Source: Methanosarcina sp. MSH10X1 (lineage in GTDB: Archaea > Halobacteriota > Methanosarcinia > Methanosarcinales > Methanosarcinaceae). Taken from it: a stretch of 64,000 nucleotides of DNA. Position 1 is the first letter of the stretch; each line of letters opens with the position of its first letter. Of this stretch, positions 52,557 to 57,746 are shown one piece after another. Made by a program: the position numbers and the translations under genes. Location of the stretch: assembly GCF_004099695.1 (NCBI RefSeq), contig NZ_SCHL01000007.1:62001-126000 (forward strand), given 5' to 3'. The notes beneath the pieces were generated by a model, which saw nothing but the letters and a program-made list of their open reading frames with translations, was not told where the DNA came from and did no database searches.

Positions 52557-53054
52557 TCAATTAATTTCGATTTCAACAGGTCTTTCTTCGTTACAGCGCC
52601 TGAAGGTGACCTCAAGCACTCCGTTTTTATAGCTGGCTTTTGCACTCTTAGGATCTACACGGGTCGGAAGCTCTATATCCTGCGAATATTCGGAAGCTCC
52701 AAGGATCTTGATTTCGAGATTTTGAGCAGTCGCATGCAGCAGGAGATCTTCTTTATCAATATCCGGGAGCTCTGCAAGTACATGTACCAGTTCTTCACTT
52801 TCAAAGATATCAATTAAAGGGTCTCTTATTTCGGAGGGGAAGAGATTCTCTTCATCTTCAGAGTGTTCCGGAATGTTTCCGAACTCCCGGAGTTCGGGGT
52901 CTTCCCCCGGGCGATGAATGATAGAAAATCCGTAGACGAAGGGGACGGACTCTCCCATATCTTCCAGGAGGGCTTCGATCATTTCTTCCAGGTTGTCAAA
53001 AAGTTCAGATCCAAAATCTTCAAAGAAATCCTTTCTTTTTCTTGTGCCCACCAT
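52557..53054 (-). CDS. Hsp20/alpha-crystallin family small heat shock protein
   Basis: This 165-residue chaperone-like protein has an N-terminal acidic region and an alpha-crystallin domain at about 75-160 with the signature YKNGVLEVTF near 145. It lacks the usual C-terminal IXI extension, ending at EIEIN. It is the last gene of a heat-shock cluster and a paralog of the gene just upstream (54-base gap). Confidence 0.9.
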   Translation of the reverse strand: MVGTRKRKDFFEDFGSELFDNLEEMIEALLEDMGESVPFVYGFSIIHRPGEDPELREFGNIPEHSEDEENLFPSEIRDPLIDIFESEELVHVLAELPDIDKEDLLLHATAQNLEIKILGASEYSQDIELPTRVDPKSAKASYKNGVLEVTFRRCNEERPVEIEIN

Positions 53055-53108: not shown

Positions 53109-53636
53109 TCACTCAATAGTTATTGAGGTTCGGGAATTGGATTCCAGCCTCTTAAAGGTAACTTCCAGCACACCATTTTTGTATGTGGCTTTCGCACTCT
53201 GGGGGTCCACCTTTACGGGCAGTTCCACACGTTCGGAATATTTTGGATTCCCATCTATTGTTTCGATGTCAAGTATTAAATCAGTTGCGTTCAGTCTGAT
53301 ATTCTCTTTCTCGATGCCTGGAATCTCGGCAATTACGTGCACAGTTTCTTCGGCTTCCAGTACATCAATCAGGGGTTTTCTTGTATCGAGATAATTTTTT
53401 TCTCCGGTTTCGGCCTGCTCGAACGCAGGAATATTCCCGAATTCCCGAATTTCGGGTTCTTCGCCTGGTCTCTGGGTTACGGAAAATCCGTAGACAAAAG
53501 GATGCCGCCCGAAGTTTTCAACACTCATACCCATTACCCTGCTGAGGCGTTCAAACATTTCATCCACATCCTCAAGCGGGTCGATTCCGAAGATTTCATC
53601 GAAAAAATTTCTTCTTTTTTTCCTGTCTCTGTCCAT
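53109..53636 (-). CDS. hsp20: Hsp20/alpha-crystallin family small heat shock protein
   Basis: This 175-residue paralog of the preceding protein shares FVYGFSVTQRPGEEPEIREFGNIP in its first half and YKNGVLEVTFKR near 157. Small heat shock proteins hold unfolded clients for refolding or, next to a CDC48 unfoldase, for degradation. It lies about 140 bases after the cdc48 gene. Confidence 0.92.
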   Translation of the reverse strand: MDRDRKKRRNFFDEIFGIDPLEDVDEMFERLSRVMGMSVENFGRHPFVYGFSVTQRPGEEPEIREFGNIPAFEQAETGEKNYLDTRKPLIDVLEAEETVHVIAEIPGIEKENIRLNATDLILDIETIDGNPKYSERVELPVKVDPQSAKATYKNGVLEVTFKRLESNSRTSITIE

Positions 53637-53775: not shown

Positions 53776-56040
53776 TTACTCCGCCTGAAAGAAACCCGGA
53801 ACATCTTTAGGTTCGATTTCTTTCTCCTGCTGTCCAGCTTCAGGAGTCTCTTCTTCAAACTCAGTTGCATATCTAGCAAAGAGTTCCGCACCCTGTTCAT
53901 AAGTAGCAAGATTTTCCCTGGATGTCGTTGGCTTTACACGGCGGATTGCACGTTCAAAGTGCTTCTTTGAAATCCTGACTTCTCCTGCCCGCTTTTCAAT
54001 ATCTTTTCTGCCAATTCCCGGAGTAACTATCTCCCTCAGGGCCAGCATTGCAGCCTCCCTGCAGATGCCCTCGATGTCCGCACCAACGTACCCTTCGGTC
54101 ATATCCGCAAGTTCGGAGAGGTTAATATCGTCTGAAAGAGGTTTCCCCTGTGTATGAATCTCAAAGATCTTTTCCCTGCCTGCTTTGTCAGGCGGTTTGA
54201 TATAAATGAGCCTGTCAAAACGACCAGGTCTCAGCAAAGCAGGATCTACCATGTCAGGCCGGTTAGTAGCCGCGACAATAATCACGTCCTTGAGTTCCTC
54301 TACTCCATCCAGTTCGGTAAGGATTTGACTGACAACTCTTTCGGATACATGTGTATCTGAAACAGAACTCCTCTGAGGGGCAATTGAATCGATCTCGTCA
54401 AAGAAGATAACTGTCGGTGCAGCCTGTTTTGCTTTCCTGAAGGTTTCCCTGATTGCACGCTCGGATTCACCCACGTATTTGCTGAGCAGTTCCGGACCTT
54501 TGATGCTGATGAAATTGGCTTCACTCTCACTGGCAACAGCCTTTGCAAGCAGGGTTTTACCCGTACCAGGAGGTCCGAATAGTAGTATTCCTCTTGGTGG
54601 TTTTACACTGATGGCACTGAAGATTTCAGGATACTTCAGGGGCCACTCTACAGCCTCAATAAGTTCCTGCTTTGCATTTTCAAGTCCTCCGATATCATCC
54701 CAGCCCACATGCGGAACCTCTACATACACTTCCCTCATTGCCGAAGGCTCGATATTTTTGAGGGCTTCTCTGAAATCCTCTTTGGTAACTACGAGGTTAT
54801 CAAGAATTTCCTGTGGGATGTCCTCTTCGATGTCTATTTCGGGAGTTATCCTTCTCAGGGCATGCATTGCAGCCTCCTTACATAGGGAAGATAAATCAGC
54901 TCCGACGAAACCGTGGGTTACATCCGCAATTTCACCGAGGCTTACTTCCTGTTCAATTGGCATGCCTCTTGTGTGAATTAGAAGAATCTGCTTCCTGCCG
55001 TTCCGGTCCGGAATTCCTATTTCTATTTCCCTGTCAAACCTTCCACCGCGGCGGAGAGCCTCATCTATTGAGTTTGGACGGTTCGTAGCAGCAATTACAA
55101 CAACCTCACCTCTGGACTTAAGCCCGTCCATGAGGGAAAGCAACTGTGCAACTACCCTGCGTTCCATTTCTCCTGTAACTTCACCGCGCTTTGGGGCAAT
55201 AGAATCAATCTCATCTATGAAGATGATAGAAGGTGCGTCCTTTTCGGCTTCCTCGAAGATTTCACGGAGCTTCTGCTCACTTTCTCCGTAATACTTGGAA
55301 ACGATTTCGGGACCGCTGATAGTAATAAAATTGGCATCAGTTTCACTTGCAACTGCCTTTGCTATCATTGTCTTGCCCGTGCCCGGAGGCCCGTGAAGCA
55401 ACACTCCTTTGGGAGGCTCAATTCCAAGCTTCTGGAAAAGCTCAGGGTGCCTTAGCGGCAACTCGATCATTTCCCTGACAAGCTGAATTTCTCGTTTAAG
55501 CCCGCCGATATCCTCATAAGAAATACCTTCTGGAACCTTGATTTCCTCAACCGATTTCTCCTTGATTACAATTTCAGTATCCTTGGTAACAACAACAGGT
55601 CCTGCAGGTCTTGTAGACGCAACTACGAAAGTGAGAGGATTATTTACAGTCTCTACCCTGATCTGCTGACCTTTATTCAAAGGTCTTCCTTCAATAATTC
55701 TAAGAATGTAGTGAGCTCCTCCGACAAGCCTTACAGGCTGAGAAGGAGCAAGGGTAACTCTCTGAGCATGCTTTGCCTGAACTTTCTGAATCATAACCCT
55801 GTCATCAATTCCGACTTTTGCATTGCTGCGGAGGTTTCCATCGATACGGATCCTGTTTTCCTGGTCACGCTCTACATTTGGCCAGACAATTGCGTAGGTC
55901 CTGGCTCTCCCTGAGATTTCAATAATATCCCCGCTTACGAGATCCATCTGCTGCATCAGTCGGGTGTCAATTCTTGCAATTCCCCTGCCCACGTCCTTGT
56001 GATAAGCTTCAGCAACTCTCAAGTTCGTTTCTTCAATCAT
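53776..56040 (-). CDS. cdc48: CDC48/VAT-family AAA ATPase
   Basis: This 754-residue unfoldase has an N-terminal double-psi barrel domain (1-180) and two AAA modules. Each module has Walker A GPPGTGKT (about 217 and 490), Walker [11 protein letters not shown] or [10 protein letters not shown], and arginine-finger sensors in [10 protein letters not shown] and [10 protein letters not shown]. It extracts and unfolds proteins for the proteasome. Its start overlaps the regulator stop (ATGA), so it is coupled to that gene. Confidence 0.97.
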
Positions 56041-56723
56041 TCATTCTCAACTCCGGTCTCACGTATTTTCCAGTAATACTGGTTATTTTTGATACTATAT
56101 TCAATAAACCCCCTTTCTGCCAGGTCTATGAGGTTAGCGTTAATAACACTGGGGTGCAGGCGCAGGTTGTAACACAGGGCAGCCAGAGTGGTTTCACTTT
56201 TTAGAAGCTCAAACAGAAGCTCACACTCTACAGGATTCATGGCAACCTTTTCAATTGAGTCCAGGCAACGGTCCATAATTTCTGTATACTCAGCCTGAAG
56301 CTGCTGCTGCATCTGTGCCAGTTCTTCTTGCCTTGTTTTGAGATCCTGAAGTCTGCTGCTTAACTTAAGGAAGAAAGCGGACGAATCTTCCGTGGCAGGA
56401 GTTTCCTTTTCCGCAGGAGCCTCACTTTTTTCTCCCTTGCCAAAATCGATGTCATGAAGCGTCACCGTATAGGCATACGGGGATACCGATACCTCAAGCC
56501 TCATATTGTTCGCGATATTAAAGTACTTGCGCCGCTGTTCATCCACGCTGCATTCTATAAGTCCGGCCTGCTCAAGCAGACCCAGATGGCTTATTATGGC
56601 TTTTGGCCCTACTCCCAGCCTGCCAGAGATCTCACTGACATAGCAGGGGCGGCTTGCAAGAAGTTGTATAATCTTCCTGCGGTTTTCATTCCCCAGGATG
56701 TCAAGTAATTTTGCCGGGTCCAT
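56037..56723 (-). CDS. hsr1: ArsR-family heat-shock regulator (HSR1-like)
   Basis: This 228-residue protein has an N-terminal winged helix ([40 protein letters not shown]) and a coiled-coil centre ([19 protein letters not shown] near 125-150). A second helix-turn-helix-like region follows ([21 protein letters not shown]). It resembles HSR1 of Archaeoglobus, where the regulator also precedes an AAA ATPase and Hsp20 genes. It probably represses the cluster and is itself released by heat. Confidence 0.85.
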
Positions 56724-56895
56724 TTTTCCCCCTCTGATAATCGTTTAAGTATACGGGACATTAAGTGATAATGCCAGATTTTACCACTATCATTTTTAGG
56801 CTGTAATGCATCCAGTCTTGAGTAGTTTCTGACAGGAATATGGGAACCCCTGCCCGAATTGTATCCGGAAAACTGGCTTGAAAGGAGTGTAAGAT

Positions 56896-56930
56896 AGTAA
56901 CCTATAGTTAGCACTAAAGATATATAAATG
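56896..56930 (-). promoter_or_regulatory. Heat-shock operon promoter with HSR1-type palindrome
   Basis: The minus strand has TATA box CATTTATATATC (about 56919-56930) followed by CTAAC-TATAG-GTTAC at 56911-56897. This differs from the Archaeoglobus HSR1 operator CTAAC-N5-GTTAG by one base. The site lies between the TATA box and the predicted transcription start, where repressor binding blocks polymerase. Confidence 0.6.
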
Positions 56931-57071: not shown

Positions 57072-57746
57072 TTACATATCGGTAGGGATATGCTGCTTGT
57101 TGTTCTTACCGGTTCCTGGCAAATCTTCTATTGAATCCGAATCACGTGATGAACTTAAAGGAGTAAGCAGATCCTTTATTTTACCTCTTTCATTTTCCCA
57201 GTTTATTAAGAATACAACATGAACGGTATTCCCATCATATTTTTCAGAGGTTACAGCAATGGTATACATCAGATCGCAAACTTCGATTGAGCCACAAAAT
57301 ACCTCGTCATAGATATAAAACTCAGCTTTACTGTAAGGTATGCCTTCAACATGCCCGCGATAATGACCGGATTCCCCACCACCGGAAACTGTGATTTCAT
57401 CGAATTTTATATTAAAGCTTCTTTCCAGTAATCTGATATTAACATTTCCACTTGCAGCAGATTCCTCGAACTTTTTAATATCAATAATAAAAGTCTCAGA
57501 ATCATCCCAGTAATCCTGAGAATCAACAGTACTATCCTGAAGAACTACCTTCTGAATTATACTTTTATCCTGAACGTCTGTAGTTCCATCTGGTGAACTT
57601 TCATTAGAGGTAGTTTCAACAAGCCGTTTTTCGGAATATTTACAGGTATTATCCTCATCATCAATCAGAATAAAAATTCCTGAAAAAACAGCCAATCCAA
57701 GAAAGATTGCAAGTACCAGTATTTTACAGACAATCTCAGTTTTCAT
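57072..57746 (-). CDS. Hypothetical membrane-anchored exported protein
   Basis: This 224-residue protein begins with a single hydrophobic segment at about 8-28 (LVLAIFLGLAVFSGIFILI), so it is anchored with an outside domain. The outside part is acidic and rich in Ser and Asp, and includes a cysteine in the juxtamembrane region (TCKYSE). No family is recognised; a cell-surface role is an inference. Confidence 0.6.
   Translation of the reverse strand: MKTEIVCKILVLAIFLGLAVFSGIFILIDDEDNTCKYSEKRLVETTSNESSPDGTTDVQDKSIIQKVVLQDSTVDSQDYWDDSETFIIDIKKFEESAASGNVNIRLLERSFNIKFDEITVSGGGESGHYRGHVEGIPYSKAEFYIYDEVFCGSIEVCDLMYTIAVTSEKYDGNTVHVVFLINWENERGKIKDLLTPLSSSRDSDSIEDLPGTGKNNKQHIPTDM

Follow-up and report, generated by a model that had tools for sequence, protein, structure and literature searches.

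Transcriptional control of the archaeal heat-shock response has so far been based on two named regulators, both from hyperthermophiles. PMC9133787, citing the work of Rohlin et al. (2005) on Archaeoglobus fulgidus, reports for HSR1 a regulator gene in an operon with hsp20, the dyad CTAAC-N5-GTTAG and autoregulation. The same source states that Phr blocks polymerase binding at hsp20 and proposes the same for HSR1; the Phr regulon includes sHsp and AAA+ ATPase genes (PMC10653856). Both proteins fall in arCOG01684, which PMC5852551 proposes as ancestral in Euryarchaeota, making a switch of this type in Methanosarcina less surprising. A third regulator, SurR, has two winged-helix domains and controls hydrogenases in Thermococcales (PMC12162507); its long motif is given as GTTn3AACn5GTT in PMC8595942. 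A search of the literature, which covered excerpts of papers other than the original HSR1 report, found no description of a Phr/HSR1-type switch in Methanosarcina. The excerpt of a review that reports a heat-shock array of M. barkeri mentions Hsp70 and Hsp60 but neither Hsp20 nor CDC48 (PMC3600222), which counts against such a switch in this genus. The comparative analysis below nevertheless suggests that one is present: the element described here is very likely an operator through which a heat-shock operon of Methanosarcina regulates itself (probability about 0.85).

The window, a stretch of 64,000 nucleotides from Methanosarcina sp. MSH10X1, carries a run of regulator, CDC48 and Hsp20 genes in the same order as in Archaeoglobaceae. 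The McrA encoded in this genome is nearly identical over 568 aligned residues to PDB 1e6y, the Methanosarcina barkeri enzyme, in keeping with a Methanosarcina host. The gene content named in the original prediction (an ArsR-type regulator, CDC48 and two Hsp20 proteins) agrees with the ORF lengths and with Pfam and NCBIfam assignments. The features are as follows.

56921..56928, minus strand: promoter TATA box, TTTATATA, read from the sequence and followed by nine bases before CTAAC
56897..56911, minus strand: HSR1-type dyad CTAAC-TATAG-GTTAC, half-sites 1 and 2, predicted operator (sequence; conservation in orthologues)
56893..56896, minus strand: third half-site, one base past GTTA and in phase with a 14-bp period; TATC here, not TAAC
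56724..56892, minus strand: remainder of the operon transcript's 5' leader, ending at the regulator ATG (sequence and alignment of 17 leaders)
56037..56723, minus strand: regulator gene, ATG at 56723, 228 aa, with an N-terminal ArsR winged helix (Pfam HTH_5, 3e-14), a coiled coil and a C-terminal winged helix; predicted autorepressor
53776..56040, minus strand: CDC48/VAT AAA+ ATPase, 754 aa, with CDC48_N, CDC48_2 and two AAA domains (Pfam); best PDB match the VCP-like ATPase 5g4f
53109..53636, minus strand: first Hsp20 small heat-shock protein, 175 aa; NCBIfam NF041800 (archaeal Hsp20) 167.3 bits, cut-off 140
52557..53054, minus strand: second Hsp20 small heat-shock protein, 165 aa; NF041800 140.4 bits, cut-off 140

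The regulator stop is overlapped by the CDC48 start (56040 against 56037). The frame at 57072-57746, just upstream of the operon and in the same orientation, encodes a protein of 224 aa that has a hydrophobic stretch at its N-terminus and matches nothing in Pfam. Two same-genus loci, L033 (G018) and L032 (G010), have a broken regulator frame and a retained operator; an assembly error is possible there.

The original prediction placed a palindrome between the TATA box and the operon start, one base short of the HSR1 site. Read directly on the minus strand, positions 56911-56897 are CTAACTATAGGTTAC (CTAAC at 56911-56907, TATAG at 56906-56902, GTTAC at 56901-56897), and the last base alone departs from CTAAC-N5-GTTAG, which is perfect near the same operon's promoter in relatives such as L003, L012 and L025. 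The TAAC of the dyad begins 18 bp past the TATA start. The dyad is thus as described, but the site is longer than had been proposed, the third half-site TATC at 56896-56893 having been overlooked. With one mismatch allowed, CTAAC-N5-GTTAG has one match in the window against 1.30 in shuffles, and genome-wide it has 21 sites, none perfect, against 69 for the reversed control pattern; with counts at or below the controls, these ten bases alone prove nothing, and the pattern was dropped as an unspecific genome scan. A scan combining TATA and core with up to three mismatches likewise gave hundreds of matches, below its control, the only useful one being the zero-mismatch match at the window operon. 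The case for an operator is positional and comparative.

Conservation was assessed in 59 relatives, 45 of which matched the regulator; two weak partial matches were left out, and the 43 orthologues retained, all with upstream DNA and all of the same order, comprise 30 from the same genus and 13 others. The exact core TAAC-N5-GTTA lies upstream of 40 of these 43 regulator genes, against a shuffled mean of 0.38, and the core with at most one mismatch is present in all 43 (12.8 in shuffles). Loss of the palindrome from orthologous operons would have spoken against the prediction; the core is kept in 30 of 30 same-genus operons at this tolerance. In 39 of 43 an exact core is preceded, at a distance of exactly 18 bp, by the start of a TATA-like box (0.0 in shuffles), and 40 of the 43 promoters show the 18-bp spacing between TATA start and TAAC; these promoters are related, so the 40/43 and 39/43 counts are not independent, against which can be set the wide variation of leader lengths around a constant TATA-core spacing. 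The best-scoring spacing at the remaining three loci is 16, 19 and 20, one of the three being cut by a contig end.

Conservation extends beyond the order. A profile search matched the regulator in 174 of 246 genomes of the phylum, and the exact core is present in 26 of 39 wider-phylum loci that were fetched. Judging CDC48 by a Walker-A string in the following ORF, the exact core accompanies 26 of the 31 loci with CDC48 after the regulator and 0 of the 7 without (L194-L200), one locus being too short to tell; the five regulator-CDC48 operons without an exact core count against the operator reading. Exact cores lie at -420 and -485 in the same-family loci L164 and L165. In a named collection, where 57 of 80 loci were scanned (most haloarchaeal loci and L239, which has no upstream DNA, were omitted), the exact core occurs in 47 of 49 non-haloarchaeal loci, mostly Archaeoglobaceae, and in 1 of 8 haloarchaeal loci, there without a good TATA box. 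The palindrome is also kept in the Archaeoglobaceae that have the regulator-CDC48-Hsp20 order, and a promoter sequence is common to same-order genomes of family f5 and the named Methanoperedenaceae loci L274 and L281. Haloarchaea (loci among L247-L282) and some other families (L194-L200) keep the regulator without a CDC48 neighbour or the operator; a haloarchaeal member matches the Pfam Cmi2 C-terminal model strongly.

Alignment of the promoters further defines the element. A TAWC at +14 (TAAC or TATC, one base past GTTA) is found in 28 of 30 same-genus operons, in 5 of 5 loci of family f2 (five of six loci passed the TATA filter), in 5 of 5 Methanoperedenaceae, in 26 of 31 Archaeoglobaceae (33 loci given, 31 past the filter) and in 18 of 18 promoters of a separate hsp20 gene, against a background mostly near 0.01 per slot. 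On this sequence evidence, the full element is TAAC-N5-GTTA-S-TAWC. Some promoters repeat it: in the family f2 loci L035, L038 and L039, tandem 14-bp TAAC/GTTA arrays of up to five dyads fill the space from TATA to the regulator gene, with five 14-bp units in L035. At the separate hsp20 promoters the element is prolonged mainly by TAAC: the 19 sequences compared (one of them L311, with no Hsp20 frame nearby) together hold 34 pairs spaced by 14 bp, against a shuffled mean of 0.24; five TAAC copies occur in L081 and L082, before hsp20, and in L311. The dyad arms at hsp20 co-vary in part (A/T 5, T/A 4, asymmetric 4; n=13).

Only two places in the 3.56-Mb genome match TAWATA-N10-TAWC-N5-GWTA-S-TAWC perfectly, the window operon and C33:119853. 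The latter precedes the separate hsp20 at C33:120256, and both perfect sites therefore stand ahead of hsp20-bearing transcription units. Orthologues of the separate gene have the site at the same spacing with at most one mismatch in 18 of 19 cases (the exception is L073), as do 3 of 3 further hsp20 loci that lay outside the pattern derivation and were found by another route; the operator was found in 0 of 11 loci of other Hsp20 matches (L084-L094). The original prediction, supported in its operator, had overlooked this second target, and also how the element relates to the SurR motif: GTTn3AACn5GTT is the reverse complement of AAC-N5-GTT-N3-AAC, i.e. the three-half-site element on the other strand. 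The excerpts consulted make no mention of this correspondence. The family consensus has this layout on the opposite strand, and the window is one base off (ATC for AAC).

The regulator itself carries an ArsR helix-turn-helix and a C-terminal Cmi2-type helix-turn-helix in Pfam. Its predicted structure (mean pLDDT 87, 52 sequences) consists of a winged helix (1-80), a long helix (114-160) and a second winged helix (164-220). The closest solved relative is Phr (2p4w; profile E 3.5e-39, Foldseek rank 1), with a structural alignment of Z 14.5 over 156 residues and rmsd 5.2 that covers residues 1-159 only, the VIA-align rows being mostly residues 1-82 and barely covering the C-terminal winged helix. 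The NCBIfam Phr model NF053602 scores 94.9 bits, below its cut-off of 320; an Archaeoglobaceae member scores only 96.4, which shows that the model describes a narrower group. The protein can thus not be called Phr sensu stricto, but its wider kinship is unaffected. By sequence profile and modelled fold, the regulator belongs to the Phr/HSR1 family. Together with the conserved operator, this assignment supports the predicted extension of the heat-shock switch to Methanosarcina.

The second closest solved relative is SurR (2qlz/2quf; profile E 2.7e-19, also found by Foldseek), which raises the alternative that the regulator reads the site in response to a signal other than heat, such as redox or sulfur state. 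The two winged helices and the common motif layout fit this alternative, as does a one-mismatch operator-like site with GTTACTAAC, which precedes the gene of a NiFe hydrogenase small subunit by about 0.3 kb in the window's genome (L127, G000:C33:156493-156526) and in G008 (L157, G008:C228:2445); its membership of the regulon is unproven. However, the CxxC of the SurR redox switch is missing from the first 80 residues of 52 of 52 relatives of the window regulator, so the regulator is not SurR; Phr is the closer relative, and the perfect sites stand before chaperone genes rather than hydrogenase genes. A signal other than heat is accordingly considered improbable.

Co-occurrence provides further evidence for the operator reading. 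Among 50 chosen genomes, the strict pattern TAAC-N5-GTTA-S-TAAC is present in 24 of 30 with the regulator and in 0 of 20 same-family genomes without it, a stronger link between DNA site and protein than conservation by itself provides; the six regulator-bearing genomes that miss it still have an exact TAAC-N5-GTTA dyad at the operon. In 12 regulator-lacking genomes with CDC48, no exact core was found in the 1.5 kb upstream of the CDC48 locus examined. Extra strict matches at G258:C16 and G103:C3 lie inside open reading frames and were taken as chance, and that at G267:C49 (L311) is a five-unit TAAC array with no Hsp20 frame within 1.5 kb downstream. These data also bear on the possibility that the palindrome belongs to the core promoter and acts as the kind of initiator element found in strong promoters. 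Its fixed distance from the TATA box, its place close to the initiator location and its conservation along with TATA might suggest this. The full layout, however, stands at only two promoters of the genome, the genomes without the regulator must still initiate transcription, and the spacing in Archaeoglobaceae is mostly 17 and up to about 20; a core-promoter element is thus very unlikely. A functionless chance near-match, which is all that the window's single one-mismatch site would suggest by itself, is contradicted by conservation, spacing and co-occurrence with the regulator and has a negligible probability.

The separate hsp20 has a strongly conserved leader of 380-490 nt in 13 aligned sequences, seen in the window's genome as a structured 5' leader of about 390 nt (L065:1114-1500, G000:C33) in which UACAGAU pairs with the stretch between the Shine-Dalgarno sequence and the start codon. 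Folding beats shuffles (mean z -3.48, n=13, one at +0.08), and pairing in the named helices reaches 97.6 per cent, two pairs differing on both sides; the count of double-changed pairs is not above shuffles, while the covariation score is. A model of the leader's 100-nt core detects it once per genome in 23 of 30 genomes of the same genus and in none of 29 others, and an Rfam search of five leader loci gave chance-level matches only. RNA-level heat control through this leader is possible.

Under operator control, a dimer of the 228-residue regulator would bind TAAC-N5-GTTA and the adjoining third half-site. Placed from the TATA position by the usual archaeal TATA-to-start distance, transcription would start near 56898, which puts the operator at roughly -12 to +6. 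A regulator bound there would still allow TBP and TFB to occupy their sites but would then keep RNA polymerase out. Release by heat, as expected from the Phr/HSR1 relatives, or by chaperone occupation would turn on the regulator's own gene, CDC48 and the two Hsp20 genes, and in parallel the separate hsp20 with the same promoter layout. The Phr consensus is TTTnnTnnCnnnnnGnnAnnAAA, and its TnnC-N5-GnnA core would fit TAAC-N5-GTTA. A broader scheme, put forward tentatively and open to considerable doubt, is that Phr, HSR1 and SurR may have one DNA grammar, with TAAC/GTTA half-sites alternating 9 and 5 bp apart in a 14-bp period and the published motifs as fragments of it. A two-headed regulator might then bind three or more half-sites and coat the arrays of some species (L035; L081, L082), at about one third of a helix turn per unit, to give a steep thermal switch, with the folded leader and its start-codon helix as a second, RNA-level control of the separate hsp20.

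A switch known from the hyperthermophile Archaeoglobus thus very likely works in ordinary-temperature methanogens as well. It is now testable, with two named targets, in a genus that is genetically tractable, and the same-family genera without the regulator offer a natural comparison. The operator rule also connects heat-shock and sulfur regulators.

Compared with HSR1 of A. fulgidus, as described in PMC9133787, the window has the same combination of regulator and hsp20 in an operon, a CTAAC-N5-GTTAG-type dyad and, as a prediction, autoregulation; Archaeoglobaceae loci likewise have the regulator, CDC48 and Hsp20 genes one after the other. It differs in a dyad one base off, two Hsp20 genes, a longer leader, a separate hsp20 as second target and a host that, judging from its genus, would grow at moderate temperature. 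Phr of Pyrococcus furiosus (2p4w) is the best sequence and fold match and has a regulon with sHsp and AAA+ ATPase genes (PMC10653856), but the match is limited to residues 1-159, whereas the predicted structure of the 228-residue regulator includes a further winged helix at 164-220. SurR of Thermococcales (2qlz, 2quf) shares the two winged helices and, going by its long motif, the three-half-site element on the opposite strand; unlike SurR, the window regulator has no CxxC, and its perfect-match targets are chaperone genes. The kind of system is already known, and what is new is the host group, the extended half-site rule and the second target.
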